A stretch of 21,248 nucleotides of DNA from a bacterium (GTDB lineage Bacteria; CG2-30-53-67; CG2-30-70-394). Both the position numbers and the translations under genes were made by a program. Shown here piece by piece: positions 3,374-17,943 of this stretch. The notes under the pieces are model-generated. The model worked only from the letters and a program-made list of their open reading frames with translations. It did no database searches and was not told the origin of the DNA. The DNA is taken from positions 1 through 21,248 of the forward strand of contig JAJRSX010000164.1 in NCBI GenBank assembly GCA_024278555.1. Direction: 5' to 3'. Within the stretch, counting starts at the first letter, position 1, and each line of letters opens with the position of its first letter.

Positions 3374-4554
3374 TACCGTTCGCGATCGATACGGATACCG
3401 CGCTCCCCCGCGACCTCCGTGTAGCACTTATCGTAGCGACGGGTCATCTCCTCGACGCTAAACGCCCCCACCGCGCGGCAACGCGCTGCCGTGCCGAGGG
3501 GGACCCGCAGGGAGGAGTCCGTGGCCAGACGGCCGAGGGCGGCGGCGAGGGTGGCCGGGTCGGCCGGGGGGACCAGCATCCCGGTCTCCCCGTCGACCAC
3601 CAGCTCCGGGTTGCCGCCGACCCGCGTGGCCACCACCGGCAGGCCGGTGGCCATCGCCTCCAGGAGGGTATTGGAGATCCCCTCGGCCAGCGACGGCAGG
3701 CAGAAGAGGTCGAAGGCGCGCAACAGCTCCGGGATGTCGGACCGCTCCCCCAGGAGGTGGACGCGATCCGCCACCCCCGACGACTCGATCGCCGCGGCCA
3801 AGCGATCGTGCTCCGGGCCGCCGCCGACGATCACCACATGGACCGCCGGATCGAGGCGGGGCGCGGCTGCCACCAGGTCGAGGTGGCCCTTCACCGGATC
3901 CAGCCGCCCCACCGTCCCGACCACCACAGCCTCGGGCGACACCCCGGGCAAGAGTGCCGCGCGATCCACCGGACCGGGGCGGAAGCGGTCGGTGTCGACG
4001 CCGTTCATCAGCACCTCCACCTTGCGTGCCGGGATTCCCACGGTGGCGGTGAGCCAATCCGCGAGGTCAACGGAGACGGTGGTGAAGCGCCGCACCCATG
4101 GCGCGTTCAGCCTGCGCAGCAGGTTGTGGCGTGGGTTGCGCCCCTCGGGGTCGTCGGCGGTACGGCCGTGCTCCCCGTGAACCACCGCGCGGACCCCGGC
4201 GAGACGCGCCGGCAGGATGCAGTCCAACCCGGCGGTGTTGCGCGTGTGGACCACATCGGGCCGCAGGCGGCGAAGGCAGCGCCAGGCGCGGAGATAGAAG
4301 GCCGCCTCGAACCCCGGCCGCTTGCGCAACTCGATGATCTCCACCGGACCCGCCAGCCGCCCGGCAAAATCGGCCGCGCGATCGACGCAGACGATCTGGT
4401 GCACAAACCGCGCCGGGTCCATCCGGTTGATCAGGTTGACCAGGCCGTTCTCCAGACCGCCGGTCCCCAGGCGAAAGATCACGTGGCAGATGCGCAGCTT
4501 GCCCTGCGCATGAGGCCCGCCCACGGCGGGCCGCTCGGGAGGCGCTGGTCGCAT
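3373..4554 (-). CDS. Exosortase A-associated glycosyltransferase, GT4 (TIGR03088 type)
   Basis: A 393-residue GT-B fold glycosyltransferase of family GT4. The start of the fold, ICHVIFRLGTGGLENGLVN at about 22-40, is the hallmark of the family named sugar transferase, PEP-CTERM/EpsH1 system associated (TIGR03088, stp2). VVHTRNTAGLD follows near 100. The C-terminal nucleotide-sugar domain has GRLDPVKGH near 215-225 and the retaining GT4 E-x7-E motif in EGISNTLLEAMATGLPVV near 295-312. It should transfer a sugar from a nucleotide donor to a lipid-linked intermediate at the cytoplasmic face. The start is uncertain: ATG at 4554-4552 gives about 20 extra residues before the fold and has no good ribosome site (TTG at 4557 is also possible). 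It follows sat-cysC across paired hairpins and is coupled by TAATG to the acyltransferase. Confidence 0.93.
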   Translation of the reverse strand: MRPAPPERPAVGGPHAQGKLRICHVIFRLGTGGLENGLVNLINRMDPARFVHQIVCVDRAADFAGRLAGPVEIIELRKRPGFEAAFYLRAWRCLRRLRPDVVHTRNTAGLDCILPARLAGVRAVVHGEHGRTADDPEGRNPRHNLLRRLNAPWVRRFTTVSVDLADWLTATVGIPARKVEVLMNGVDTDRFRPGPVDRAALLPGVSPEAVVVGTVGRLDPVKGHLDLVAAAPRLDPAVHVVIVGGGPEHDRLAAAIESSGVADRVHLLGERSDIPELLRAFDLFCLPSLAEGISNTLLEAMATGLPVVATRVGGNPELVVDGETGMLVPPADPATLAAALGRLATDSSLRVPLGTAARCRAVGAFSVEEMTRRYDKCYTEVAGERGIRIDRER

Positions 4555-4568
4555 CAAAGGAGAGCCTC

Positions 4569-4615: not shown

Positions 4616-6358
4616 CTACTCGATCCAACCCTCTTTCCTCAAATAGTGAAGGAGCTGCTGCGCCGCCTCGTCCGGGTTGAGGTGGGTCGTGTCGATGCTC
4701 ACCTCGGCCCGCTTCGGCTCCTCGTACGGGTCGCTGATGCCGGTGAACTCCTTGATCAGGCCGGCGCGTGCCTTGGCGTAGTGGCCTTTGCGGTCGCGCC
4801 CTTCGCACACGTCCAGAGGCGTCGCCACGTGGACCTCGATGTAGCCGCCGTACTCGGAGATCATCTCCCGGTTGAACTGCCGGGTGCGCTCGTAGGGGGC
4901 GATGGGGGCGCAGATGGCGATGCCGCCGTTCTTGGTGATCTCGCTCGCCACGTAGCCGATGCGCTGGACGTTGAGGTCGCGGTGCTCGCGGGTGAAGCCG
5001 AGCTCGGAGGAGAGGTGGCGGCGGACGATGTCGCCGTCGAGCAGCGTCACCGGCCGGTCCCCCACCTCCAGGAGTCGGGTACGGAGGACGTTGGCGATGG
5101 TCGACTTGCCCGCCCCGGAGAGGCCGGTGAAGAAGACCGTGAAGCCGCGCTTCGAGCGTGGCGGGTACGCCTTCTTCAGCTCCTCGACGACCTCCGGGTA
5201 GGAGTACCACGACGGCACCGGGAGCCCCTTCTGGAGGTAGCAGCGGAGGCCGCAACCGGAGATCTCCGCGGTGCGCGCCCCCTCGGGGACCTCGTCCTCG
5301 ACGAGATACCGCTCCTCCTCCGGGACATAGACCATCTTCCGGAAGGGGATCATCTCGATCCCCAGCTCATCGCTGTGGGCGGCGAGGAGCTCCTGGGCGG
5401 CGTAGGGCGGATAAAAGGGCGCCTCACCCTCCTCCACCGTGGGGCCGGCGTAGTCGCGACCGACGATGATGTGGGAGCAGCCGTGGTTCTTCTCGACGAT
5501 CGCGTGCTGCAGGGCCTCGCGCGGCCCGGCCATGCGCATCGCCGCCGGCAGGAGGCCGAAGAGCATCAGGTCCTGGGGATAGCGCTGCGCCACCTTGCGG
5601 TAGCAGCGGACGCGGACGAAGTGGTACACGTCGCCCGGTTGGGTGGGACCGACCACCGGATGGAGCAGCAGGTTGGCGTTGTGCTCGCGACAGGCCCGGC
5701 GGGTCATCTCCACGTGGGCGCGATGCAGCGGGTTGCGGGTCGTGAAGGAGACGAGGCGCTGCCAGCCGAAACGGGCGGCATAGGTACGCACATCGCGCGG
5801 GGTGAGACGGAGGGTCTTGAAGTCGTAGTGGACCGGGAGTTGGAGACCGACCACCTCTCCCCCCACACAGAAGCTCGGCCGCGCCATCAACGCACGCACC
5901 CCCGGGTGGCGCTCGTCGGTGGTGCCGTAGACGAGCTCCGCCTCCCGCGCCTTGTCCGGCTCCCACACGTCGCCGACGGTGAGGATGGCGAGGACCACCC
6001 CCTCAGGGTCACGCAGGGCAACCTCCTCCCCCACGGTGAGACGGCCGGCGAGATCCCGGTCCACCGGCAGGACGATCGGCACCGGCCACAGGGTGTGGTC
6101 GGCGAGGCGCATCGACTCCACCACCGACTCGTAGTCCGCCCGGCCGAGGAAGCCGGTCAGCGGCGACAGACCGCCGGTGAGGAGGAGCTCCAGATCGCTC
6201 AGGGGGCGGGCATCGAGGTCGATGGAGGTGAGGTCGCGGCACCCCTCCTTGCGCGCCGCCGCCGCCTCCGGCGGAAGCATCAGCTCGCACAGGCGACCGC
6301 CGTGGGGCGGGTTGAGGTGGTCCTCCAATGGACCGGCGACGGTGAGGGATGGGTTCAT
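4616..6358 (-). CDS. sat-cysC: Bifunctional sulfate adenylyltransferase / adenylylsulfate kinase (PAPS synthase)
   Basis: A 580-residue cytoplasmic fusion that turns sulfate and two ATP into PAPS, the donor for sulfotransferases. Residues 1 to about 390 are an ATP sulfurylase of the Sat/Met3 type, with the nucleotide motif RNPLHRAH at 208-215 and GRDYAGP at 300-306 (the usual GRDHAG with Tyr for His). Residues about 400-580 are APS kinase, with Walker A GLSGAGKS at 412-419 and the substrate-loop stretch IAICAPIAPYE. Domain order and length match known Sat-CysC fusions. The ATG at 6358-6356 has a strong AAGGAG ribosome site six bases upstream, so a reading that begins at 6424 is rejected. It lies next to cysQ and the same locus holds three sulfotransferases, but no PAPS reductase, so a role in sulfation is favoured. 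A sigma-54 promoter lies about 140 bases upstream. Confidence 0.97.
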   Translation of the reverse strand: MNPSLTVAGPLEDHLNPPHGGRLCELMLPPEAAAARKEGCRDLTSIDLDARPLSDLELLLTGGLSPLTGFLGRADYESVVESMRLADHTLWPVPIVLPVDRDLAGRLTVGEEVALRDPEGVVLAILTVGDVWEPDKAREAELVYGTTDERHPGVRALMARPSFCVGGEVVGLQLPVHYDFKTLRLTPRDVRTYAARFGWQRLVSFTTRNPLHRAHVEMTRRACREHNANLLLHPVVGPTQPGDVYHFVRVRCYRKVAQRYPQDLMLFGLLPAAMRMAGPREALQHAIVEKNHGCSHIIVGRDYAGPTVEEGEAPFYPPYAAQELLAAHSDELGIEMIPFRKMVYVPEEERYLVEDEVPEGARTAEISGCGLRCYLQKGLPVPSWYSYPEVVEELKKAYPPRSKRGFTVFFTGLSGAGKSTIANVLRTRLLEVGDRPVTLLDGDIVRRHLSSELGFTREHRDLNVQRIGYVASEITKNGGIAICAPIAPYERTRQFNREMISEYGGYIEVHVATPLDVCEGRDRKGHYAKARAGLIKEFTGISDPYEEPKRAEVSIDTTHLNPDEAAQQLLHYLRKEGWIE

Positions 6359-6457
6359 GGTCACTCCTTCCCCGGTCGCGCGTGGCGGCGAGGGGCGGCT
6401 GGCGATAACAAAGGTCGGCTCCATGGGCGAAATCTCCGCGACGGGCCGGGGGTTGGT

Positions 6458-6472
6458 GTCTCAATGTGAGAC
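6458..6472. repeat. 6-bp inverted repeat in the sat-cysC leader
   Basis: GTCTCA and TGAGAC flank a three-base loop (ATG). The element lies downstream of the predicted sigma-54 start point and about 100 bases before the sat-cysC start codon. It could be a small operator or leader hairpin. A six-base stem may also arise by chance, so the call is modest. Confidence 0.4.
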
Positions 6473-6497
6473 GGATCGGCCCTTCTCGCGGGATACC

Positions 6498-6514
6498 AGC
6501 AAGTACGGTGCCAA
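6498..6514 (-). promoter_or_regulatory. Sigma-54 (RpoN) -24/-12 promoter for sat-cysC
   Basis: On the minus strand the 17 bases read TTGGCACCGTACTTGCT. This matches the sigma-54 consensus YTGGCACGNNNNTTGCW with one mismatch (C for the G after GGCAC). The invariant GG and GC are exactly 10 bases apart. It begins 28 bases after the cysQ stop. Transcription would start near 6487, giving a leader of about 130 bases with a strong ribosome site at its end. Exosortase A loci commonly carry PrsK/PrsR, whose regulator acts with RpoN; neither gene is in this window. The activator's binding site would be expected upstream, within cysQ, and I could not identify it. Confidence 0.8.
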
Positions 6515-6542
6515 CTCATACAGTCCCCATCAGCATCCCGAC

Positions 6543-7364
6543 CTACCGCCCATGAAGGTCCGGCGACACCGGGACATCTTTCAGCCGCTCCAGGAGCTTG
6601 GCGTGGAGGGTGGCGTTGGCCGCCACGACGCTGCGGTACTTCGCCTTCGGCTGATTGTAAAGGATCGGCGCCCCGTCCTTCTGGGTCACCCGGCCACCCG
6701 CGGCCACCACCAGGGCGTGGCCGCCGCAGATATCCCACTCGTGCTTCGGAGAGAGGGTGTAATAGATGTCGCACCGGCCGGTGGCCAGGAGGGCCAGCTT
6801 GTAGGCGATGGAGCCCACCGCCTCGAAGCGGTAGAGGTCGGCGACGTCGTCGAACTCGCCACGCTTCTGCTCGCTGCGGCTCCCCACCAGGTGGGCGCCG
6901 GCCAGCTCCACCGCCGCCGCCATCGCCACCGGCGCGCCATTGGCGGTGGTCCCCTCCCCCACCACCCCGGCGACCAAGAGATCCTCGGTCGGGTTGAAGA
7001 CGACCCCGAGCTGCGGCACCCCGCGATGGACCAGGCCGATGGAGATGGTCCAGTGGGGGACCTTCTGGAGGAACTCCTTGGTGCCGTCGATCGGGTCGAC
7101 CACCCACACCCAATCGCGCCCCAGGCGCGCCGGGTCGTCGAGGGTCTCCTCGGAGAGCCAGCCGAACTCCGGCGCCGCGGCCAGGAGCCGCTCGTGGAGC
7201 AGCCGGTCCACCGCCAGGTCCGCCTCGGTAAGGGGGTTGTCCTCCCCCTTGGCCCACTGCTTCACCTCCGCCTGGTTGTAGATGGCACTGGCGATGGCAC
7301 CCGCCTCACGGGCGGCCGCCTCGGCGACGGTGAGGAGGTGGTGGAGAGACTGTTCGTCGGCCAT
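6543..7364 (-). CDS. cysQ: 3'(2'),5'-bisphosphate nucleotidase (PAP phosphatase), CysQ type
   Basis: A 273-residue enzyme of the inositol monophosphatase superfamily. It hydrolyses PAP, the by-product of every sulfotransferase reaction, to AMP and phosphate. Metal-binding motifs are in order: SEE at 71-73, DPIDGT at 90-95 and WDICGGHA at 210-217. Length is near the family norm (about 250-275). The ATG at 7364-7362 is chosen because GAAAGG lies just upstream; the earlier in-frame ATG at 7388-7386 follows a pyrimidine-rich stretch with no ribosome site. The gene sits between the O-ligase (164-base gap upstream) and sat-cysC (184-base gap downstream). Beside a PAPS synthase and in a locus with three sulfotransferases, it would keep PAP from inhibiting sulfation. 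A related role as an inositol phosphatase is less likely in this context. Confidence 0.94.
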   Translation of the reverse strand: MADEQSLHHLLTVAEAAAREAGAIASAIYNQAEVKQWAKGEDNPLTEADLAVDRLLHERLLAAAPEFGWLSEETLDDPARLGRDWVWVVDPIDGTKEFLQKVPHWTISIGLVHRGVPQLGVVFNPTEDLLVAGVVGEGTTANGAPVAMAAAVELAGAHLVGSRSEQKRGEFDDVADLYRFEAVGSIAYKLALLATGRCDIYYTLSPKHEWDICGGHALVVAAGGRVTQKDGAPILYNQPKAKYRSVVAANATLHAKLLERLKDVPVSPDLHGR

Positions 7365-7528
7365 GGAGCGCCTTTCTCGTTGAGGCATGGAGGGGAGCCG
7401 TAGCCTACCCGCCCCCCCTGGAGGGTGGCCACCTCATCGGCGACGTCGGCCCCGCCCCGAGCCCCATCCGTTCGACCCCGGCAAGCCGCCTCGTCCCGCT
7501 ACCGGCGGTTCGCGGGAAGTGACCACGA
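7365..7528. other. Intergenic gap between the O-ligase and cysQ genes
   Basis: This is one of only two larger gaps in the window. It is GC-rich. I find no convincing -35/-10 pair, no sigma-54 motif and no hairpin followed by a T-run on the minus strand. A loose CCGGG/CCCGG stem follows the O-ligase stop, but it lacks a T-run. Readthrough from the O-ligase into cysQ seems possible. Confidence 0.4.
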
Positions 7529-8932
7529 TCACCGGGGGCTGCCACCCGGCCGCCCCTGGCGACGGTGGAGGGGGGGCGACCAACCTGCCGGCTGCGCGGG
7601 AGGACGCCACCGGGTCGGCGCCGCCTCCGCCGGCACCGCTCCCTGCCCCGTCGGCCCCGCTTCACCCTCTGTCGCGGCCACCTCCAGGGGGAAGAGGTGT
7701 CTCACCAGGACAAGGAGGATGATCAAGTCGTAGAAATAGTCCCAGTACGCCTTCCCCAGGGCGGCACCACCGAGAGCGTAGGCGCCGAGGGCGATCTCGA
7801 TGGTCGCCGCGTAGGTCTCCACCTCCGTGTTCCCCAGCCGCCGCGCCCGGCGACGCATCCGCTCCGCCTGCAAGAACGAGCCCCCGAGCAAGAGGAGAAA
7901 GAGGGCGAGGCCGGGGTACCCCTGCTCCCCGAGCATCTCGAAGTAGATCGAGTGGACATCGTGGCCCTGCCCCTCGGCGGGGAAGTAGGCGTCCCACACC
8001 CACCCCTCGAATGCGTGGAAGCCGCCGCCGGTAAACGGTCGGTCGTGGGCGATGTTGCGCGCCCCCTCCCAGGCGCCGAGCCGGCCGCGGAAGGAGGCGT
8101 CCTCCTCCTCCGCGGTCTCGATGGTCCCCATCCGCGCCTTCCATTGGGTGGTCACCATGCCGGCGCCCACCACCACCGCGATCGCCACCGCCACCGCCAC
8201 CACCGCCCGGTAACGGGAGCGCCAGGTGAGGGCCACCAGGACCGCCGCCAGGGTGATAAAGCCGCCGCGCGAGTAGGTCCCGACCACCGCGACGGCGGTG
8301 AAGAGGGTAATGAACGGCGCCGCCCGCGCCACCCAGACCCACCACCGCGGCAGCTCCAGGGTGCGGATCAGACGGGGCAGGAAGTAGAGGAGGGGGAGGG
8401 TCATGCAGAAGGCCAGCGCCGCGTCGTTGTTGTCGCCGATGAAGGTCCCGGGGGGGCCGTAGACCCGGTGCTGGCCGCCGGTGAGGAGGGTGAAGAGGCC
8501 CCCCTTGAGCCCCACCAATCCAACGGAGAGGGCCATCACCACCACCAGGTAGAAGAGTTTCCGCCGATCATTGATGAGCATCAGGGTGATGAAGGTCATC
8601 ACCAGGACCTTGCTCACCTCGATGAACTGGTAGCGGGCATCGGCCGGGTTAAAGGCGACCGTCGTGGTGAGGCCGAAGAGGCACCAGAGGGCAACGAGCA
8701 CCCCCACCTGCCAGGCGTGCGGCAGGCGCTGGCGATCGGGGCTGCTGAGGAGCCCCACCATGATGGCGATCGCCACCAGCTCCGCCACCGGGAAGGTGGT
8801 GGCAAAGCCCCAGCAGTACCGGTGCGGGCTCATGAGCGACAGCCACGTCCACATGAGGATCCCGACCCACGGCCGGATCAGGGTCACCGGGAGGGAGGCG
8901 AGGACGATCCCCACGACAAAGAGGTCACGCAT
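7529..8932 (-). CDS. O-glycosylation ligase / O-antigen polymerase-like, exosortase A-associated (TIGR03097 type)
   Basis: A 467-residue polytopic membrane protein of the Wzy/WaaL superfamily with roughly ten or eleven hydrophobic helices. It starts MRDLFVVGIVLASLPVTLIR and has SLMSPHRYCWGFA near 40 and GPPGTFIGDNNDAAL near 170. A large periplasmic loop carries FRGRLGAWEGA and GHDVHSIYFEMLGEQGYPG near 322-340, the Wzy_C signature. These stretches match the family annotated as putative O-glycosylation ligase, exosortase A system-associated. It should join repeat units or transfer chains to an acceptor on the periplasmic side. ATG at 8932-8930 overlaps the stop of the double glycosyltransferase by eight bases and has GGGGAGGG upstream. 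The last 50 or so residues are a Pro/Gly/Arg-rich hydrophilic tail not expected in the family. The glycan-ligase versus polymerase role cannot be decided. Confidence 0.92.
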   Translation of the reverse strand: MRDLFVVGIVLASLPVTLIRPWVGILMWTWLSLMSPHRYCWGFATTFPVAELVAIAIMVGLLSSPDRQRLPHAWQVGVLVALWCLFGLTTTVAFNPADARYQFIEVSKVLVMTFITLMLINDRRKLFYLVVVMALSVGLVGLKGGLFTLLTGGQHRVYGPPGTFIGDNNDAALAFCMTLPLLYFLPRLIRTLELPRWWVWVARAAPFITLFTAVAVVGTYSRGGFITLAAVLVALTWRSRYRAVVAVAVAIAVVVGAGMVTTQWKARMGTIETAEEEDASFRGRLGAWEGARNIAHDRPFTGGGFHAFEGWVWDAYFPAEGQGHDVHSIYFEMLGEQGYPGLALFLLLLGGSFLQAERMRRRARRLGNTEVETYAATIEIALGAYALGGAALGKAYWDYFYDLIILLVLVRHLFPLEVAATEGEAGPTGQGAVPAEAAPTRWRPPAQPAGWSPPLHRRQGRPGGSPR

Positions 8933-11138
8933 GGCCGCCCTCCCCCGCCGCCGCCATCGGCGCGGCGGGAAGTAGGCGGTCGTAGGCGGCGGTAACCCGG
9001 CGCACGTGGGTCTCCACCGCAAACAGGGCGAGGGCCCGCGCGCGCGCCGCCGCGCCGAGGCGGGCCGCCTCCGCCGGATCGTCGTGCAGGCGGACGATCG
9101 CCGCGGCGAGGGCGTCGGCGTCGCCCGGCGGCACGAGGAGGCCGGAGCGATCCGCCTCGACCATCTCCGCGGCGCCGCCGTGGGCCGGCCCCACCAGGGG
9201 ACGCCCCATGGCCATCGCCTCGATCACCACGGTCCCCAGGGGCTCGGGCGAGGTGGAGCAGGAGAGGACCACATCGAGGCCATTGTACAGGGCGGCCATA
9301 TCCGTCACATGGCCGAGAAAATGGACCCGCCCCTCCACCCCCTCTTGCCGCACCCGGTCGCGCAGCTCCGCCTCGTAGGCCGTGCACTCCTCCGGAGTCC
9401 CCCCGGCGAGGACGAGGTGGGCCTCGGGGATGGCGGCGAGGATCGCCGGCGCCGCGTCGAGGAGGACCCCCTGCCCCTTCCACGGGATGAGCAGCCCCAC
9501 CAGGCCGACCACGAAGGCATCCGCGGGAAGGCCGTGGTCGCGGCGGAAGGCGGCGCCGTCGGCCCCCTGGTCCATCTGTTCCAGCTCGATCCCGTCATAG
9601 ACCACCTCCACCTGGCCCGGGTCGATGCCGAGCTCGACGATCTCGTCGGCGACCCACTGGGAGACCGCGAGGAAGTGGTCCGGGAGGCGGTAGAAGAGCG
9701 ACAGGGAGCCGCCCGCGTCGCGCTGGCCGCGCACGTGGCAGACCACCGGTAAGCGCAGGAGCCTCCCCACCAACAGCGCCGCCCGGTTGCACAGGGGCTC
9801 GTTGTTGGCGTGGATCAGGTGGGGGCGAAAGCGCAGGGCGGTGGCGAGCAGGCCGAGGAGGAGGGGGAAAAAATTGGCCAGGTCGTCGAGGCGGGCGAGG
9901 AGCTGGCCGGCAAGCCACCGGAGGCCGGGGAGTCGATCGGGCCACGCCGCCCTCGCCAGCCGCCCCTTCATCGCCACCACGTCGACCCACCGATCGCGGA
10001 TCGGCCGCCACGGCGCATCCTCAGCAAACCCCTCCCACGGCCCCCCCCGCCGGCCGGTGACCACCAGAGGATCGTAGCGACGCCGATCCAGGTGGCGGAC
10101 CAGGTGGCGGAGGCAGACCGCCGCGCCGCCGTAGCCGATACCGTTTTCCACGTAGAGGATGCGCCGCCGCCCTGCCATCGGGACCTCATCGGCCGCACCG
10201 CGGCCGCGGCGCAGCCGACGGGCCACGGAGCTCGGCAGGGCGGCGAGGACAAGGGCGCGGCCCGCACCCCACGAGGGGGCGAGGCGAAGGCTGCGCAGGA
10301 GCGGCGGTCGCGCCTCGCCGGCGGCGCCGGTGCGCGACAGGGCGTGGCCGAGGTCCAGGTAGCGTGCCGCCGCCCACCCATCCGCGCTCACCCCTTGGCC
10401 GGCCAGGGCCCCCGGCGGCCACCGCCGGATCGCCTCGGCCACCTCGACCAGGCCGCGCAGGGTCTCCACCCCGCCGCCGGTGAGGTTGCCACCGTGGCGG
10501 CTGCGGCGCATGAGAACCTCGGGGACCACGGCGATGGGGAAGCGGACGGCGATCCGTACCCACAGCTCCAGATCCTCGCCAAAGCGCAGGGCCCCGTTGA
10601 AGCCGCCCACCGCCTCCAGGACCGCGCGCCGCACCAGGACCGTGCCGGTGGGGATGAAGTTGGCCTCCAGGAGCAGGCCGGCGGCTCGCGGGATCGGCGC
10701 GCCACCCAGGGCGCGGAAGCGATCGAGGTGGCCGTGGGCCGCCATCACCGACTCCACGACCACCGCCCCTGCCCCGTCCACCTCGGCCATGTCGCCGGCC
10801 ACCAGGGCCACCGACCGGTGGGCCGCCACCAGGGCGAGCTGGCGGGCGAGCTTGTCCTCCACCCAGGTGTCGTCCGCGTCGAGAAAGGCGATCCACTCGC
10901 CGGTGGCCGCCTCCACCCCACGGTTGCGGGCCGCCGCCGGCCCCTGGTTCGTCTGGCGAATCAGACCCACCCCGAGCCCCTCCGCCACCGTCGCGGTGGC
11001 GTCGGTGGAGCCGTCGTCGACGACAATGATCTCCGCCACCGCGGGCTCCTGGGCGCGGACACTGGCCACCGCCGCCGCCAAGAAGGGGGCGCTGTTGTGG
11101 GCGGGGATGACCACCGAGATGGTCGGGGTCTCAGCCAC
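8925..11138 (-). CDS. Two-domain glycosyltransferase, GT2-GT4 fusion
   Basis: A 737-residue protein with two unrelated glycosyltransferase folds. Residues 1 to about 300 are a GT-A family GT2 domain: SVVIPAHNSAPFL near 8-20, VVDDGSTD near 39-46, the metal-binding FLDADD at 85-90 and GEDLELWVRIA later. Residues 321-737 are a GT-B family GT4 domain: YVENGIGYGGAAVCLRHL near 329-346, IPWKGQG, and the E-x7-E motif in EPLGTVVIEAMAMGRP. It probably adds two consecutive sugars at the cytoplasmic face. The start is GTG at 11138-11136, overlapping the previous stop by eight bases with GGAGGGG upstream. An internal in-frame ATG at 10178-10176 begins exactly at the GT4 domain and has a GAGG nearby, so the GT4 may also be made alone. 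No stop lies between the domains. Confidence 0.88.
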   Translation of the reverse strand: MAETPTISVVIPAHNSAPFLAAAVASVRAQEPAVAEIIVVDDGSTDATATVAEGLGVGLIRQTNQGPAAARNRGVEAATGEWIAFLDADDTWVEDKLARQLALVAAHRSVALVAGDMAEVDGAGAVVVESVMAAHGHLDRFRALGGAPIPRAAGLLLEANFIPTGTVLVRRAVLEAVGGFNGALRFGEDLELWVRIAVRFPIAVVPEVLMRRSRHGGNLTGGGVETLRGLVEVAEAIRRWPPGALAGQGVSADGWAAARYLDLGHALSRTGAAGEARPPLLRSLRLAPSWGAGRALVLAALPSSVARRLRRGRGAADEVPMAGRRRILYVENGIGYGGAAVCLRHLVRHLDRRRYDPLVVTGRRGGPWEGFAEDAPWRPIRDRWVDVVAMKGRLARAAWPDRLPGLRWLAGQLLARLDDLANFFPLLLGLLATALRFRPHLIHANNEPLCNRAALLVGRLLRLPVVCHVRGQRDAGGSLSLFYRLPDHFLAVSQWVADEIVELGIDPGQVEVVYDGIELEQMDQGADGAAFRRDHGLPADAFVVGLVGLLIPWKGQGVLLDAAPAILAAIPEAHLVLAGGTPEECTAYEAELRDRVRQEGVEGRVHFLGHVTDMAALYNGLDVVLSCSTSPEPLGTVVIEAMAMGRPLVGPAHGGAAEMVEADRSGLLVPPGDADALAAAIVRLHDDPAEAARLGAAARARALALFAVETHVRRVTAAYDRLLPAAPMAAAGEGGHA

Positions 11139-12387
11139 CGCCGCCCCTCCCGGGCCGCGGGTCGAGGAGGAGGCAGAGGAGCGCCGCCGGCACCACCAGG
11201 GTGCTCCCCCAGGCGATGGCGCGGATCTTCCCGTGGCGGTTCCACAGACGACGGAGGAAGGCGGCAACCTTGCGCCGCGGCGGCGCCGGCGCCAGGGGCG
11301 GCCGCTCGCCGGTGAGCGGATCCGCCACCTCGCCCCGCTCGATCCACCGCCCCCACTCCGGGGAGGCGAGGAAGCGCAGGGCTGGGTAGCGAGCCCGCGC
11401 CCGACCGAGGAGGTCGTCGAGGCCGGCCAGGGCCGCCGCCCCCCCGCCGCTGTAGTTATACCGGTGGGTGGAGAGGACCGCCGGCTGCGCCTCCGCCACC
11501 CGTTGGGTCAGCGCCTCCCACGCCCCCTCCTCCCCTCGACCGTCACGGGGCTCATACATCACGTTGCGCACCAGGTAGCGGGGGCCGGCGGTCGACCGAT
11601 CGCCCGGGGCGAGCCACGGGGGGTCCTGAACGTAGTGGCCGGACCCGTCGCGGCCGGTGCAGCGGTAGCCGGCGGTCTGGATGTAGCGCACCCCGGCCGC
11701 CGCCCACGCCCGTTCGGTGGCGTCGTCCCACAGGTAGCACGGCGCCACCGCCGAGGTCGGCGGCTCGTCCCAGAAGGCGGTGAACGCCTCCACGCCGCCG
11801 GCCACCAGCGCCGCCTGCACCTCGGGCGCCACCACGCGGGTGGGCAGAACGCTGCCGTCCACGTAGTGGCCCTGGAGCGGCGAGGCGAGCGCCTCCCAGT
11901 CGAGGCCGCCGGCCGCGAGCCAGGCGAGGACCGCCTCGTCGCCGGCGCGCGCCCGTTCGAGCAGCCCGTCAGGGTGGAGGTGGTCGAGGCCGTGGAGTTG
12001 GGGGCAGAGGGTCCCGGCCCCATGGCCCGCCCGCAGGGCGGCGGCCACCTCGGGGAAGCGGTCGATGGGACGGCGGATGTAGCGGCTGTATCCGGAGGCG
12101 ACGATCGCCTCCCCATCGGGGACCGCCATCACCAGGTTCGCGGTGAGCACGGCGGGCCGCCCGGTTGAGTCGCGATGGCGATCGAGCACCGCCAAGAGGG
12201 CCTCCAGGGCGGCTGCGTGGTCCGGCGGCCCGGGCCCCCAGTCGTCGGACTCGATCACCACCACCGGCACCCCCACATACGGCTCGCGCCAGGTGGCCAC
12301 CAGCAGCCGGCCACGGCTGGCAACGACCACCGTGACCGCCGCCCCCCACAGGGCAGCGAAGAGCAGGACCACGGCAGCGACGCTCAC
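11131..12387 (-). CDS. Membrane-anchored, divergent NodB-like polysaccharide deacetylase homologue
   Basis: A 418-residue protein with a hydrophobic N-terminal helix (residues about 2-23), a soluble domain, and a second hydrophobic helix near 390-408. The soluble part shows a NodB/CE4-like layout. IESDDWG at 45-51 stands where TFDDG is usual, and HGLDH at 132-136 has the H-x3-H spacing of motif 2. YIQTAGYR near 235-242 and STHRYNY at 306-312 would be late active-site strands. The rest differs from classical deacetylases, so I infer a related metal-dependent carbohydrate esterase rather than assert it. The GTG start at 12387-12385 overlaps the sulfotransferase stop as GTGA, with GGAGGG upstream. 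It could N- or O-deacetylate the polysaccharide in the periplasm. An enzymatically dead, regulatory form is the alternative. Confidence 0.75.
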   Translation of the reverse strand: MSVAAVVLLFAALWGAAVTVVVASRGRLLVATWREPYVGVPVVVIESDDWGPGPPDHAAALEALLAVLDRHRDSTGRPAVLTANLVMAVPDGEAIVASGYSRYIRRPIDRFPEVAAALRAGHGAGTLCPQLHGLDHLHPDGLLERARAGDEAVLAWLAAGGLDWEALASPLQGHYVDGSVLPTRVVAPEVQAALVAGGVEAFTAFWDEPPTSAVAPCYLWDDATERAWAAAGVRYIQTAGYRCTGRDGSGHYVQDPPWLAPGDRSTAGPRYLVRNVMYEPRDGRGEEGAWEALTQRVAEAQPAVLSTHRYNYSGGGAAALAGLDDLLGRARARYPALRFLASPEWGRWIERGEVADPLTGERPPLAPAPPRRKVAAFLRRLWNRHGKIRAIAWGSTLVVPAALLCLLLDPRPGRGGGG

Positions 12388-13328
12388 CCCTCACCCTCCA
12401 GCGAGTAGCCGAGGGCGGTGGCGGTGGCCGCTACCCTTGGAAGCACCGCGGCGATCCGCGCCGCCTCGGGTGCATCCCGCCACTTGTCCACCCGGGGGGC
12501 GGAGAAGGCGTTGTACGGACGGGCGATCACCGTCTCGCAGTGGCGCGCGACCGCTGCCGAAAAGTCCGCCCCCACCGCCCCGAAGAGGTCGCGAAAGCTC
12601 GCCACCGGGTCGGCGAGGAGCGCCTCGTAGGCGACCTCCACGAAGCGCGTCGCCGGGATCGCCTGCCGCGCCGCGAGGACCGCCTCGTTGTAGGCCGCCC
12701 ACTGGGCCGCCGCCACCGCTTCGATGGGGGCGTCGAGGTAGTCCCGCCAGCCGGGGAAGAGGAAGAAGCACCAGCGCCTGTATTGGCCGCCGTTGATGCG
12801 CACCCGCGCCGGCAGGGCCGCGGACCAGTCGCCGTACTCGTCGGGCCGCCCCCAGCCGGTGATCAGGGAGGCGATGTTGTCCCCCGGGCCGCGGCGCACG
12901 AAGACAAAGGTCGGCTCCTCAAAGAGGGCCTCAAGGTAGGCGATGCGAAAGCCGTTCTGGTTCGTCTTGTCCACGAAGCGGCGGGGGCCGAGGTAGCGGT
13001 GGTAGTAGCGCAGCGCCTCCTCGCGATCCTCCGCCCGGGCGTCGGCGGCGGTGAGCTCGTGGCCGCTCCAGCCCCTCTCCTCCGGCGGATGGAGCGCCGA
13101 CCAGAAGGGGTGTCCCTCGCGGTTCAGGGAGGCGAGGTTGGGGGCCAGGGACAGGGTCTTGTAGACCAGGGTGGTGCCGGCGCGGGAGCACCCCACCACC
13201 AGGAGGGGCCGGGCGAGGCGGTGGCGATCCACCACCGGCCAGAGGAGCACCCGGCCTGCCTCCCGCAGGCGGCGGCGGTAGTAGGCGGCGGTCTTCGCCA
13301 CCTTCACCCCCAGCTCCCCGAGGCTCAC
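12384..13328 (-). CDS. Sulfotransferase family protein (third in the locus)
   Basis: A 314-residue PAPS-dependent sulfotransferase (Sulfotransfer_3-like fold). The 5'-phosphosulfate loop is PLLVVGCSRAGTTLVYK, with CSRAGTT at 47-53 in place of the common PRSGTT. The 3'-phosphate motif is FVFVRRGPGDNIASL, with its core at 145-154. FVDKTNQNGFR near 118-128 matches the KTP/KTN helix of bacterial carbohydrate sulfotransferases. No signal peptide is seen, so it acts in the cytoplasm on nucleotide- or lipid-linked sugars. GTG at 13328-13326 overlaps the stop of the preceding GT2 as GTGA, and GGAGGGGG lies upstream; a reading from 13487 would lie inside that GT2 and is rejected. The target sugar and position are unknown. 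It is diverged from the other two sulfotransferases, so a different acceptor is likely. Confidence 0.87.
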   Translation of the reverse strand: MSLGELGVKVAKTAAYYRRRLREAGRVLLWPVVDRHRLARPLLVVGCSRAGTTLVYKTLSLAPNLASLNREGHPFWSALHPPEERGWSGHELTAADARAEDREEALRYYHRYLGPRRFVDKTNQNGFRIAYLEALFEEPTFVFVRRGPGDNIASLITGWGRPDEYGDWSAALPARVRINGGQYRRWCFFLFPGWRDYLDAPIEAVAAAQWAAYNEAVLAARQAIPATRFVEVAYEALLADPVASFRDLFGAVGADFSAAVARHCETVIARPYNAFSAPRVDKWRDAPEAARIAAVLPRVAATATALGYSLEGEG

Positions 13329-14263
13329 CGCCCCCTCCGTGACGACTGCCGGCTGCCACGGATCTCCCCGAGGGCGGCGGCGGCGCGGACCAGGTAGTGG
13401 CGCCGCCGATCCGCGCCGAAGGCGGTGGCCGCCCGCCAGGCGTGGCCAACGAGCTGTGGAAAGAGGTAGCGCGGCGCCCCGAGCCATCGGCGCCCCCCCT
13501 CCCGGGGCCGGGCGAGGCGGGTGTCGCGGGCGCGCTGGTACGCCTTGCGCACCACATAGCCGAGGCGCAGGCGGGCCGGGTCCACGTAGTGGTACTGGAG
13601 GGCGTCGGGGACGTACCAGAGGGGCAGGCCAAGGTCGAGGATACGGCCAACGAAGCCGATGTCCTCGGCCCCCCCGAGGTCGTGGCCGCGGGGACCGAGG
13701 CTCGGATCAAAGCCACCGATCCGGTCGATCAGGACACGGTGGAATAAGAGGTTGCCGCCGCCGGGGATGAAGTCGCCCGGCGCCACTCGCCGCTCCGTCT
13801 CCCCGAGGTCGAAGTTCGGCACCGGGTAGGGGCGGATCCGGTAGGGGCCGTCGTCATGGACCCAGGCCGGCTCGGTGCCGTCCCAGTCGGGGAGGATCCG
13901 GCCGCAGAAGCCGGCCGCCTCCGGGTGGGACTCCACCGCCCGCGCCACCGCCTGGAGCCAGCCGGGGGAGACCCGGTGGTCGTCGTCGGCAAAAACCAGC
14001 AGCTCGCCATGCGCCTCGGCGATCCCATGGTTGAGGGCGTGGGACTTGCCCAACTCGGGCTCCTTTACCATGCGCAGCCTCGACACGCCGCCACGTCGCT
14101 GCCACGTCGCCACCACCTCAGAAGTACCGTCCGTGCACCGGTTCGCCACCACCACCGTCTCCATTGCGAGCGAGGCCGGCGGCGTGGCAGCGGCGATGGA
14201 GGCGAGGAGCCTATCGAGCAGCACCGCCCGATCGTGGGTGCAGATGAGGATCGTGGCGTCCAA
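13325..14263 (-). CDS. Glycosyltransferase family 2
   Basis: A 312-residue GT-A fold transferase. It opens ATILICTHDRAVLLDRLL, then VVANRCTDGTSEVV near 36-49, and carries the metal-binding FADDDHR near 91-97. An acceptor-site block, GGGNLLFHRVLIDRIGGFD, is followed by GGAEDIGFVGRIL with the catalytic-base ED pair. There are no clear membrane helices. The start appears to be TTG at 14263-14261, three bases after the stop of the upstream sulfotransferase, with GAGGTGA five bases before it; no ATG or GTG is available before the conserved first strand. The end overlaps the next sulfotransferase start as GTGA. Lying between two sulfotransferases, it probably adds the sugar that one of them sulfates; this is inference. 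Donor and acceptor cannot be read from sequence. Confidence 0.9.
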   Translation of the reverse strand: MDATILICTHDRAVLLDRLLASIAAATPPASLAMETVVVANRCTDGTSEVVATWQRRGGVSRLRMVKEPELGKSHALNHGIAEAHGELLVFADDDHRVSPGWLQAVARAVESHPEAAGFCGRILPDWDGTEPAWVHDDGPYRIRPYPVPNFDLGETERRVAPGDFIPGGGNLLFHRVLIDRIGGFDPSLGPRGHDLGGAEDIGFVGRILDLGLPLWYVPDALQYHYVDPARLRLGYVVRKAYQRARDTRLARPREGGRRWLGAPRYLFPQLVGHAWRAATAFGADRRRHYLVRAAAALGEIRGSRQSSRRGR

Positions 14264-14266
14264 CGA

Positions 14267-15238
14267 TCACCTCTGCTTACGCCCCCGCCGCCACCGGCGC
14301 AGGAGGCGGTTGTGGACCCGACAGCCACCACGCACCACCAGGGGCGGGGGCTCGGCAGCGGTGGTGAGGGGGTAGCCGTTGCTCCTCAGGGTCTCGCCCG
14401 CGGCACCTTCGAAGAGGGCGAGCTGGCGCGGCGACATCTGGAGCCGCCACTTCTCCCTGTTGTCCGACTGGATCGGCTTGCTCAGGAGGGGGGTCTTGCC
14501 CCGACCGCTCGCCTTCTTGAAGTTCAGGAGGTCATCACTGTAGGCCTCGCCGAGAAAGCCACACAGATCTCTCAGGGTCTGCTCCTGCGCCTGGAGAAGA
14601 TCCTCGTAGCGGACCTCGTGGTAGTGGCCCGGCGGCAGGGTGGCACCGACCTCCTGCCCCACCTCCACGTAATGCTGCCAGTACCGCGCCGCCTCGTAGA
14701 AGTTGTAGATGTGGAAATCGTCGCGCCGGACCAGGGTGGAGAGGGCGCAGTCACGGCCGTCGCGGATCAGGTGGACGATCTGCGCCTCCGGAAACATCTC
14801 CAGGAGCAGCTCCATGTGGAGGACGTAGTACGGCGTCTTGTCGCCCCACCGTGCCTTGCCCTCCCCCGCGGCGTTGCGCGCGAAGAGGGCGGCGATCACC
14901 CCCGCCATGGTGCCGCCGCCGTCGGCCGCAAGCCCCTCGGCGAGGTCGTCCATGGTCGACTCGTCAAAGCGCAGGCCATGCAGGTCGGTGGCAAGGAAGT
15001 CCCGGCTCCGCCGCCACATCTCCTCCAAGACCCGGCGGACGTTCTCCGGCCGCGTCAGGTCGCCGAACCGCTCGCGCTCGCGCTGGAGAGGGACGATGAA
15101 GTGCGACTCGCCGGTGGGCAGGGAGAGGCGCGGGTGGGAACGGAGGATGTATTGGAGGAGGGTGGTACCCGAACGGGGCGCCCCCACCACGAAGATTGGC
15201 CCCCGCCGCCCACCGCCTGCGTCTCTCTGCTGCTCCAT
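14267..15238 (-). CDS. Sulfotransferase family protein (second in the locus)
   Basis: A 323-residue PAPS-dependent sulfotransferase. The 5'-phosphosulfate loop is PIFVVGAPRSGTTLLQYIL, with APRSGTT at 20-26. The 3'-phosphate motif is VHLIRDGRDCALSTL, with its core at 158-166. RWGDKTPYYV near 129-138 is typical of the Sulfotransfer_3 family. The C-terminus is a short Arg/Lys-rich tail. It would act in the cytoplasm on a sugar precursor of the exopolysaccharide. ATG at 15238-15236 has GGAAAGGG upstream and stands 19 bases after the stop of the previous sulfotransferase; a longer reading up to 15697 would lie inside that gene and lacks family sequence. This is the most canonical of the three sulfotransferases. 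The family also includes protein and small-molecule sulfotransferases, but the surrounding glycosyltransferases favour a glycan acceptor. Confidence 0.92.
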   Translation of the reverse strand: MEQQRDAGGGRRGPIFVVGAPRSGTTLLQYILRSHPRLSLPTGESHFIVPLQRERERFGDLTRPENVRRVLEEMWRRSRDFLATDLHGLRFDESTMDDLAEGLAADGGGTMAGVIAALFARNAAGEGKARWGDKTPYYVLHMELLLEMFPEAQIVHLIRDGRDCALSTLVRRDDFHIYNFYEAARYWQHYVEVGQEVGATLPPGHYHEVRYEDLLQAQEQTLRDLCGFLGEAYSDDLLNFKKASGRGKTPLLSKPIQSDNREKWRLQMSPRQLALFEGAAGETLRSNGYPLTTAAEPPPLVVRGGCRVHNRLLRRWRRGRKQR

Positions 15239-15257
15239 GGTTCCCTTTCCGCGAACG

Positions 15258-16238
15258 CTACCAGTCCGTGTCGTCCTGATACCACGGCAGCCCAAACTGC
15301 GAGAACCCATCGCGGAGGCGCGCCACACACGCCTCCGGCACCGCCCCGCGCCACGCATCCCCCATCTGTGCGCTCGGTCGCCGGGTCCCATAGGGGTCGG
15401 CGGAGTCGTCACCACCGGTGGAACGCTCAAGGGCGCTCTCCATGGAGCCGTCCCACACCAGACCAACCTTGTGAGAGAGGGCTTGAAAGGTCTCCCGAGG
15501 TCGGCGACAGAGGGTCTCGTATTCGACCACCTCCACCTGCCGGCAGCGCTGAAGCACCCTCCAGGCGCAGTAGAGGACCGCGCCCTGGCGCTTGCCCTGC
15601 TCGAACCAGTAATCCCCCTCCCGGTCGAGGGCCTGCCGCCACCGCCCCAACACACCGCTCCCCAACCGGCTCGCCGGCCCGAAGAGCTCCCCCACATCGC
15701 TGCCGGTCCAGCCGAGCCGCTGGTAGCTGCGGGCCACGGCCACCGGGTGGCGCACCAGAAAGACCACCTGGGGCCGGTAGCGCGGCAGGAGCCACTCCAG
15801 GGCGAGGGGGTTGACCTCCTTGATCACCAGACGCCGCGCCCGCCGCGTTGACAACCGCCACTGGTCCGGCTTGGCCACGATCCCGGCACGAAAGGCGGGA
15901 TAGGCGGCAAAGGCGGCGTCGGCAAAGCGGGAGTACGAACGGGGGATGGCCGCGGGATCGTGGTCGACGATCGCCCGATCGCTCAGGCCGCCGCCGATTG
16001 CGGACTGGGTGATCGGCTCGCGCAGATAGAGGGCATTCGGCGCCTGCCCGAGGCTCTTTCCCACCCAGCTCGACCCACTGCGCGGCAGAGAGACGACAAG
16101 GATCGGTCGCCCCGACACCGGGTAGAGGTGAGAGAGGAGCCACGACCCGAGCCCCCAGCGTGCCCACCCCACCGGGATGTCCCCACGCCGGAGGGCGCCG
16201 CCGCCGAATCGACTCGGCCAGCCAGGTCGACCGTTCAC
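15258..16238 (-). CDS. Sulfotransferase family protein (first in the locus)
   Basis: A 326-residue PAPS-dependent sulfotransferase. After about 44 N-terminal residues comes the 5'-phosphosulfate loop PILVVSLPRSGSSWVGKSL, with PRSGSSW at 52-58. The 3'-phosphate motif is VFLVRHPVAVARSYQRLG, with its core at 163-171. RLVIKEVNPLALEWLLPRY near 136-154 supplies the conserved Lys. It resembles the Sulfotransfer_1/3 group with the PRSGSS variant seen in lipid and glycan sulfotransferases. GTG at 16238-16236 overlaps the preceding GT2 stop as GTGA; the longer reading to 16346 would lie wholly within that GT2. A long acidic C-terminus (DDTDW) ends the protein. It is clearly not a recent copy of the next sulfotransferase. 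Acceptor unknown. Confidence 0.88.
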   Translation of the reverse strand: MNGRPGWPSRFGGGALRRGDIPVGWARWGLGSWLLSHLYPVSGRPILVVSLPRSGSSWVGKSLGQAPNALYLREPITQSAIGGGLSDRAIVDHDPAAIPRSYSRFADAAFAAYPAFRAGIVAKPDQWRLSTRRARRLVIKEVNPLALEWLLPRYRPQVVFLVRHPVAVARSYQRLGWTGSDVGELFGPASRLGSGVLGRWRQALDREGDYWFEQGKRQGAVLYCAWRVLQRCRQVEVVEYETLCRRPRETFQALSHKVGLVWDGSMESALERSTGGDDSADPYGTRRPSAQMGDAWRGAVPEACVARLRDGFSQFGLPWYQDDTDW

Positions 16239-17182
16239 CCCGCCTCCCGCTGCTGCCTGGCGTAGCCGACAACGCGACCCACGAAATAGCCGACATTCAT
16301 CTGCTGGCGAAAGGCGTGGCTCGGCCCGTGGCGCGCCACCAGCCACCCATAGCGGAGGGCGGCGCGGAGGAGTTGGCGCAGGAGGAAGAGGGGGACGCCG
16401 GCGACGGTGCGCGGGTAGCGCTCCGGGTCGCGCCGCGCCGACAGGATGCCGGCGTTGTAGTGGAGGGCGCGGAAGAATCGCTTGTGGAGCTGATGCTCCA
16501 GGACCTGATGGAAGACGAGGGCGCCGGGGGCGTAGTAGATCGTCCCCCCGGCGGCGGCGAGGCGGAGGAAGTAGTCGGTCTCCTCCCCCTTGAAGAGCTC
16601 CTCGCGACAGCGCCCCTCCCCCTTGCGGCCGAGCTCGGTGTCGAAGAGGCCGATCCGCTCCACCACCCGCCGGTCAAAGGCCATGTTGCCGCCGAAGGGG
16701 AACTCGTGGCGGCCGTCGAGCCGCCGTTGCTCGGCGCCGAGGTCGCGGAAGCCGAGAAAGCCTTGCATGTCCGGGCGGATCCACGTGGGCAGGGGGCGCG
16801 GCGGGTGCAGGTGGATCGGCCCACCCACGGCGTCGCACCGAAAATCCTGGAAGCAGTGGTAGAGGGCGGCGAGCCAGCCGGGGGTGACCTCGATGTCATC
16901 GTCGATAAAGCAGAGGTAGCGACCCGCCGCCTCCTGGATGCCGCGGTTGCGCGCAGCGGAGAGCCCCTGCTCCCCCTCGAAGGTGTAGCGGATGCGGATC
17001 GGACCCTCGGCGGCGATCGACTCCACGGTGGCGCGGGTGGCGTCGGTGGAGTTGTTGTCCACCACCACTACCTCCCACGCCACCCCGTCGACCCCCTCCT
17101 GGCGGGCGAGGGCCGCCAGGCACGGCTTGAGGTTGTGGCACCGGTTGTAGGTGCAGAGGATGACCGAGAGCTCCATGGTCAC
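16235..17182 (-). CDS. Glycosyltransferase family 2
   Basis: A GT-A fold glycosyltransferase of 315 residues. Motifs in order: LSVILCTYNRCHNLKPCL near 5-22, VVVVDNNSTD near 38-47, LSAARNRGI near 74-82 and the metal-binding CFIDDDIEV near 91-99. GGNMAFDRRVVERIGLFD comes next, and KGEETDYFLRL has the catalytic ED pair. A weakly hydrophobic segment near 265-285 may contact the membrane. Two starts are possible: GTG at 17182-17180, which overlaps the deacetylase stop as GTGA, or ATG at 17176-17174, two codons later. I prefer the GTG because the same overlap recurs through the operon; no strong ribosome site helps decide. It should add one sugar of the repeat unit on a lipid carrier. It differs clearly from the other GT2 proteins here. 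Confidence 0.9.
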   Translation of the reverse strand: MTMELSVILCTYNRCHNLKPCLAALARQEGVDGVAWEVVVVDNNSTDATRATVESIAAEGPIRIRYTFEGEQGLSAARNRGIQEAAGRYLCFIDDDIEVTPGWLAALYHCFQDFRCDAVGGPIHLHPPRPLPTWIRPDMQGFLGFRDLGAEQRRLDGRHEFPFGGNMAFDRRVVERIGLFDTELGRKGEGRCREELFKGEETDYFLRLAAAGGTIYYAPGALVFHQVLEHQLHKRFFRALHYNAGILSARRDPERYPRTVAGVPLFLLRQLLRAALRYGWLVARHGPSHAFRQQMNVGYFVGRVVGYARQQREAG

Positions 17183-17943
17183 ACCCGCGCCCGCAGGCGT
17201 CCCCAGTAGTACCGCAGCGGCCGCGTCACCCCCGAGGTGTTACAGCCGAAACGGATCTTCTGCGCCAACCGCCACACCGCGTCGGTACCGAAGACCTCGA
17301 TCCGCCGCAACCGGAGGGGATCGATTCCCGGCCGGTTGAAGCCGGGCCGGGTGGTGCAGGCGCGCCGGTAGCCGGCCGTTGCCACCGCCTCGGCCACCCG
17401 GTTGTCGAAGAGGCCGTAGGGGTAGGCGAAGGAGGTCACCGGCGCCTCGATCTCCGCCTCGATCACCTGCCGCGCCCCGGCCACCTCGGCGTCGGCCGCC
17501 GCTACCGGGAGCTCGGTGAGGCGCGGGTGGGTGAGGGTGTGGCCGCCGATCTCCACCCCGGCCGCCACCATCTCCCGCACCTCGTCCCAGGTGACCATGG
17601 GCCGCTCGGGGAAGTCCCCCCCCGCCATCCACCGGTTCGTCTCCCCCACCAGGCCGACGGTGAGGAAGAGGGTGGCGGGTATCTCGTAGCGACGCAGGAT
17701 CGGCAGGGCGTCGGTGTAGTTGTTGCGGAAGCCGTCGTCGAAGGTGACCACTACCGCGTTATCCGGGAGCGCCCCATCGCCGTCGAGGTGGCGCTGCGCC
17801 GCCGCCAGGGTGACCACCGGGTGGTGGCGCCTCAGGTAGCGCATGTGGCGGGCGAAGCGGGCCGGCGGACAGGCGTACTTCACCTCCGCCTCGCTCTCCG
17901 GGAGGGTCACCTGGTGGTACATGAGGATGGTAAAGCGCGCCAT
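17179..17943 (-). CDS. Polysaccharide deacetylase, NodB/CE4 family
   Basis: A 254-residue metal-dependent carbohydrate deacetylase. It starts MARFTILMYHQV. Motif 1 is VVVTFDDGFRNNY, with TFDDG at 67-71 (catalytic base and metal Asp). Motif 2 is GGHTLTHPRL, with the metal-binding His135 and His139. Motif 3 is SFAYPYGLFD near 165-175. All key residues are present, so it should be active. I see no clear signal peptide or membrane helix, which suggests a cytoplasmic or non-classically placed enzyme acting on precursors. It is shorter than, and differs from, the exosortase A-linked deacetylase family that carries an extra C-terminal domain. ATG at 17943-17941 lies six bases after the previous GT2 stop without a clear ribosome site. 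Free amino groups made by N-deacetylation could be targets for sulfation, as in heparan-type glycans; this is speculation. Confidence 0.92.
   Translation of the reverse strand: MARFTILMYHQVTLPESEAEVKYACPPARFARHMRYLRRHHPVVTLAAAQRHLDGDGALPDNAVVVTFDDGFRNNYTDALPILRRYEIPATLFLTVGLVGETNRWMAGGDFPERPMVTWDEVREMVAAGVEIGGHTLTHPRLTELPVAAADAEVAGARQVIEAEIEAPVTSFAYPYGLFDNRVAEAVATAGYRRACTTRPGFNRPGIDPLRLRRIEVFGTDAVWRLAQKIRFGCNTSGVTRPLRYYWGRLRARV

Follow-up and report, generated by a model that had tools for sequence, protein, structure and literature searches.

A predicted sulfation module with an altered sulfurylase site in an XrtA-type polysaccharide locus of an uncultured candidate phylum

Can a run of polysaccharide genes that encodes a sulfate-activating protein, sulfotransferases and a CysQ-like phosphatase take sulfate all the way to a sulfated sugar, or does it depend on APS made elsewhere in the cell? 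The question is raised by a 21,248-nt stretch of DNA (hereafter the window), which is the whole of contig C143 of a 3.06-Mb, 211-contig MAG. A sequence-only reading had placed at positions 4616–16238 a complete, self-contained module for sulfate activation, transfer and by-product removal, inside an exosortase A-type polysaccharide locus. Our analysis points to a modified reading, which we hold with reasonable confidence: within an XrtA-type locus for a sulfated exopolysaccharide, the window forms the downstream half, and the supply of the sulfate donor starts at APS. The enzyme activities, the APS source and the sulfation are what we infer from the genes. The congener of the host is "Nitrospirae bacterium CG2_30_70_394" (G001), whose name we take to place it in GTDB candidate phylum CG2-30-70-394.

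Gene content and setting of the locus

The window holds a single gene run in which every real gene lies on the minus strand (Table 1). All gene families named in the sequence-only reading are present, with profile scores that, set against their cut-offs, are far above chance. The margins are low for sulfotransferase c (36 over 27 bits) and the TIGR03088 glycosyltransferase (414 over 409), and the CysQ-like protein falls below its cut-off. Two of the named genes, AsnB and the TIGR03088 glycosyltransferase, lie outside positions 4616–16238. The at least five glycosyltransferase domains attributed to that interval are likewise found over the whole run, which has six, with just three of them inside the interval.

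Table 1. Genes of the window, listed in order from its right edge
Feature	Coordinates	Strand	Remarks
Fourth sulfotransferase, C-terminal tail, cut at contig edge	20855..21247	-	Alignment to intact gene in G001:C30
650-aa protein without known family	18885..20837	-	Low-confidence model: N-terminal beta region, then helices
GT2 glycosyltransferase	17950..18903	-	
Polysaccharide deacetylase (PF01522)	17179..17943	-	
GT2 glycosyltransferase	16235..17182	-	
Sulfotransferase c	15258..16346	-	Weakest match, 36 bits; start codon uncertain
Sulfotransferase b	14267..15238	-	P-loop PRSGTTLL; start placed at ATG 15238
GT2 glycosyltransferase	13325..14263	-	
Sulfotransferase a (Sulfotransfer_3)	12384..13487	-	Start codon uncertain
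Membrane protein without family match	11131..12387	-	Hydrophobic helices N- and C-terminal; model pLDDT 40, unusable
GT2 + GT4 fusion glycosyltransferase	8925..11267	-	
O-ligase/polymerase-like membrane protein, XrtA-system (TIGR03097)	7529..9022	-	407 bits, cut-off 188
CysQ-like 3'(2'),5'-bisphosphate nucleotidase (putative PAP phosphatase)	6543..7388	-	DPIDGTKEF, GSIAYK signatures
Fused ATP-sulfurylase-like + APS kinase (PRK05537 architecture)	4616..6424	-	842 bits, cut-off 669
GT4, XrtA-system (TIGR03088)	3373..4557	-	414 bits, cut-off 409
Acyltransferase 3 family (PF01757)	2285..3427	-	
AsnB-like amidotransferase, XrtA-system (TIGR03108)	293..2224	-	1004 bits, cut-off 817

Assignment to an XrtA/PEP-CTERM-type polysaccharide locus is well supported by profile matches, with XrtA itself on another contig. 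Three XrtA-system equivalogs score over their cut-offs in the window (TIGR03088, TIGR03097 and TIGR03108), and contig C151 carries six further XrtA-system families over cut-off, namely TIGR03027 (export), TIGR03007 (chain length), TIGR03015 (ATPase), TIGR03006 (deacetylase), TIGR03019 (FemAB) and TIGR03087 (glycosyltransferase), together with a TIGR03018-like kinase below its cut-off, an AsnB-like protein and a flippase. C151 would lie directly upstream of the window, because congener contig G001:C30 matches the gene order of the window's right part and runs on upstream of it, and because one sulfotransferase is split across the gap: the N-terminal part of the fourth sulfotransferase is located at the left edge of C151, and the gene is intact in G001. 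A second congener contig, G001:C160, is collinear with the left part of the window. No exact end overlap joining C143 to C151 or C106 is present among the contig ends, and the C151 link is by synteny alone.

The exosortase A gene expected near the window is present in the genome (TIGR03109, 226 bits over 208), on the separate contig C106, which also carries EpsI, PrsK, PrsR, TIGR04063 and a heparinase II/III-like gene; the latter encodes a 930-aa protein adjoining XrtA (L042:5928-8720, G000:C106). The XrtA-system families in the window and C151, together with XrtA, PrsK, PrsR and TIGR04063 on C106, bear out the locus type originally proposed. Specifically, the host resembles XrtA/PEP-CTERM loci in having TIGR03007, 03015, 03006, 03019, 03027, 03087, 03088, 03097 and 03108, XrtA, PrsK and PrsR, and differs from them in that its locus carries a predicted sulfation module. 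Beyond incidental mentions, we found no literature joining exosortase A/XrtA with sulfotransferases or polysaccharide sulfation.

The block formed by the O-ligase, CysQ, Sat-CysC, GT4, acyltransferase and AsnB genes is conserved in the same order in G001, with 63–89% identity. A 32-kb contig of G002, a genome from a different family of the class, combines TIGR03007, TIGR03013, TIGR03018 and TIGR03015 with a sulfotransferase, Sat-CysC and a CysQ with 49% identity to E. coli CysQ, and in G006 the trio of sulfotransferase, CysQ and Sat-CysC occurs with nucleotide-sugar genes. These sulfation genes (sulfotransferase, PAPS and PAP) are integral to the locus; the congener keeps them, and a second family does so in part. 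Across a domain-wide sample of 386 genomes, the fused protein is over cut-off in 15 and TIGR03097 in 8; the two occur together over cut-off in the host and its congener alone. In G001, sulfotransferase c is absent from its place and the genome has an extra GT4, so the sugar unit probably differs between the two genomes.

The fused sulfurylase/APS kinase and its altered site

The fused protein contains sulfurylase and APS kinase domains in one chain, and scores over the PRK05537 cut-off. The APS kinase motifs are intact (GLSGAGKS, DGD), while the sulfurylase domain has TxRN in place of QxRN (TTRNPLHRAH) and GRDY in place of GRDH (GRDYAG), and retains HxxH, the R and N of QxRN, and the R and D of GRDH. 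Two otherwise near-invariant active-site residues are therefore lost, a change that is invisible to domain-level motifs. Among 49 aligned sulfurylases the Q-R-N-H-H-R-D-H signature is intact in 35 and reads TRNHHRDY in the window protein; the Q is lost only in the host's class and in a Desulfobulbus-type group. The congener has ITRN in place of QxRN, four other class relatives show HTSK and GPEH, and the Desulfobulbus-type MAGs have HTRE/NCAH and AEDH. In every one of the six fused-gene carriers of the class, the sulfurylase signature is changed and the kinase motifs are intact.

A close parallel is the two-domain APS kinase of Thiobacillus denitrificans (3CR8), which a title referenced by PMC6715247 and PMC13213808 describes as lacking ATP sulfurylase activity. 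The degenerate forms cluster in a tree of 22 proteins, where the window protein groups with 3CR8; the AU test does not reject a single origin (p-AU 0.21). The window protein resembles 3CR8 in having a sulfurylase domain of putatively inactive type fused to a putatively active kinase. T. denitrificans is a sulfur chemolithotroph, and the host shares with it a degenerate sulfurylase domain, an intact kinase and a separate canonical Sat in the genome. The 3CR8 site, QARQ/HRAQ (QARQPMHRAQ), is more degenerate than that of the window protein. The altered site, TxRN with GRDY, and the grouping with a kinase so described argue against calling the module "complete" or "self-contained", and the conversion of sulfate to APS is probably not carried out by the window protein. 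Residual sulfurylase activity or a structural role of the domain is possible, because HxxH, R and N are kept and selection on both domains is purifying (w 0.17 for the sulfurylase, 0.12 for the kinase).

The same kept residues, including the R and D of GRDH, the selection on both domains and the full PRK05537 architecture could also mean that the fused protein works as a bifunctional PAPS synthase, with the run self-contained from sulfate to sulfated sugar. We consider this unlikely, as Q is replaced by T (I in the congener) and the H of GRDH by Y at positions kept in nearly all surveyed canonical sulfurylases, same-class relatives show HTSK and GPEH, the protein groups with 3CR8, and the host encodes a canonical Sat elsewhere. 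No second Sat was found in G090, G101, G368 or G239, genomes with intact-site fused forms.

In the Desulfobulbus-type MAGs (L060, L061 and L063), the degenerate fused gene belongs to a conserved group with genes for a VanZ-like protein and a two-component system (histidine kinase and sigma-54 response regulator). No sulfotransferases lie beside it in the neighbourhoods compared, so a degenerate site is not by itself a sign of polysaccharide sulfation.

Use of PAPS and the proposed pathway

The three sulfotransferases of the sequence-only reading are confirmed by Sulfotransfer_3 scores of 71, 137 and 36 bits (cut-off 27) and by a PAPS-binding P-loop motif, and the tail at the right edge adds a fourth. 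Its CysQ assignment holds in part. The protein belongs to the IMPase superfamily, its best equivalog is CysQ, and in an alignment with E. coli CysQ and SuhB it has the CysQ-type DPIDGTKEF and GSIAYK where SuhB has DGTTNF and GSAALDL; its score of 144 bits misses the equivalog cut-off of 228.8.

Sulfotransfer_3 does not define the acceptor, and TPR-sulfotransferases are encoded elsewhere in the genome, as would fit PAPS and sulfotransferases serving another product (a sulfolipid, a Nod-like small molecule or protein tyrosine sulfation) and being merely located in a polysaccharide locus. This is a distinctly improbable explanation, given that the four sulfotransferases are interleaved with glycosyltransferases and a deacetylase in one run that is largely conserved in the congener, and that sulfotransferase, CysQ and Sat-CysC occur again inside the XrtA-type export cluster of another family.

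The host has no member of the PAPS_reduct family, to which CysH and CysD belong, and neither do G001–G004, G006 and G007, in a search that detected the family in all 14 control genomes. It is absent from all five class relatives with the fused gene; within the class it occurs only in G005, which does not carry that gene. With no CysH or CysD, PAPS would have no known assimilatory outlet, leaving the sulfotransferases as its consumers. The lack of a PAPS reductase family in the host strengthens the case for sulfation, which is the best reading of PAPS use from the gene content. Ordinary sulfate assimilation by the fused protein and CysQ, in an incidental position, would match the normal service of such genes in cysteine synthesis and the co-occurrence of intact-site fused forms with CysH in five other genomes, but we rejected it as highly improbable because the PAPS_reduct family is missing from the host and the fused-gene carriers of its class, and the placement with polysaccharide genes is kept.

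For the supply of APS, contig C207 of the host carries aprBA and qmoABC, and contig C1 a canonical Sat (PRK04149). A review of sulfate/sulfite reducers describes DsrL-1 without DsrD in the candidate phylum, pointing to oxidative sulfur metabolism (PMC10591310). The phylum is probably sulfur-oxidising, and APS is probably supplied by the canonical Sat and AprAB encoded elsewhere in the genome.

In the pathway that we propose, APS would come from the dissimilatory enzymes of the host, AprAB (from sulfite) and/or the canonical Sat. The fused protein would act mainly as an APS kinase, converting APS and ATP to PAPS, with its sulfurylase-like domain impaired or purely structural. Sulfotransferases a–c and the cut fourth would use PAPS to sulfate sugar residues, most likely at the stage of lipid-linked cytoplasmic units, and the CysQ-like phosphatase would convert PAP to AMP. 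The unit would be built and decorated by the glycosyltransferases, deacetylase, acyltransferase and amidotransferase, and assembled and exported by the O-ligase/polymerase of the window and the flippase, chain-length and export proteins of C151. Several points weigh against this pathway: the sulfurylase domain retains R, N and both H, so some activity may remain; PAPS could go to two TPR-sulfotransferases encoded elsewhere in the genome; the join to C151 is inferred, not sequenced; and XrtA is not linked to the cluster on the available contigs. A more far-reaching version, in which sulfation is wired to dissimilatory metabolism, with no PAPS-route assimilation, a sulfurylase-dead two-domain APS kinase whose gene lies within an exosortase A locus, and APS straight from AprAB-driven sulfite oxidation, is a tentative proposal that we would sooner doubt than accept. 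If true, surface sulfation would report on energy metabolism.

Relation to known sulfated-polysaccharide clusters

Clusters of this kind are already known. In Cobetia marina KMM 1449, a determined sulfated capsule structure has been linked to a cluster with PAPS genes, cysQ and a sulfotransferase (PMC11766843). As in the window, these genes lie inside a polysaccharide cluster; the Cobetia cluster has cysN/C and cysD where the window has the fused Sat-CysC, and belongs to a marine gammaproteobacterium with KpsETMD ABC export and no exosortase system described. No Kps ABC export genes were found in the window or among the searched C151 genes, which have flippase/XrtA-type export genes instead. 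In Vibrio sp. KMM 8419, likewise with a determined sulfated capsule structure, PAPS genes and sulfotransferases were called a hallmark of sulfated polysaccharides (PMC11641403). The Vibrio cluster similarly pairs sulfotransferases with a second set of PAPS genes (cysNDC), and differs in its ABC export, its different enzymes and in that no CysQ is reported in it. The genetically tested xss (synechan) cluster of Synechocystis resembles the window in combining sulfotransferases, glycosyltransferases and Wzx/Wzy-type export genes (PMC8205485), but is cyanobacterial, and we found no genes for making PAPS or removing PAP in descriptions of it.

The novelty suggested for the module is accordingly narrowed, since the Cobetia and Vibrio clusters already place PAPS genes in sulfated-polysaccharide clusters; the new parts are the XrtA setting, the phylum and the degenerate activator. 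If the sulfation reading is true, sulfated exopolysaccharide extends to exosortase A systems and to a candidate phylum that is uncultured and probably sulfur-oxidising, and APS kinases of the T. denitrificans type with a dead sulfurylase domain gain a role, the provision of PAPS for sulfation from dissimilatory APS. In addition, the residue test is simple, can be used on any genome, and helps to separate assimilatory from sulfation-dedicated PAPS synthases.

Two proteins of the run have no family match. The 650-aa protein (predicted structure with mean pLDDT 48.7) was found among the 386 genomes only in the congener (75% identity) and in the distant G094 (30%, among polysaccharide genes); as a glucuronyl C5-epimerase, a candidate that we rejected, it had no supporting Pfam, NCBIfam or PDB match. 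The membrane protein (pLDDT 40.2) has, besides its terminal hydrophobic helices, an ESDDWG motif and perhaps a deacetylase-like fold.

Elsewhere in the host, contig C11 (L043/L044, G000:C11) carries a second exosortase/EpsI locus, XrtD-like with scores below cut-offs, which also has a sulfotransferase, a sulfatase-family protein, a PseB-like dehydratase and FemAB. Fusions of TPR and Sulfotransfer_3, about 580–600 aa long, occur at L046:2-1735 (G000:C83) and L047:202-1992 (G000:C52) and on G001:C2, where three Sulfotransfer_3 frames stand in tandem; these are possible protein sulfotransferases and further consumers of PAPS.
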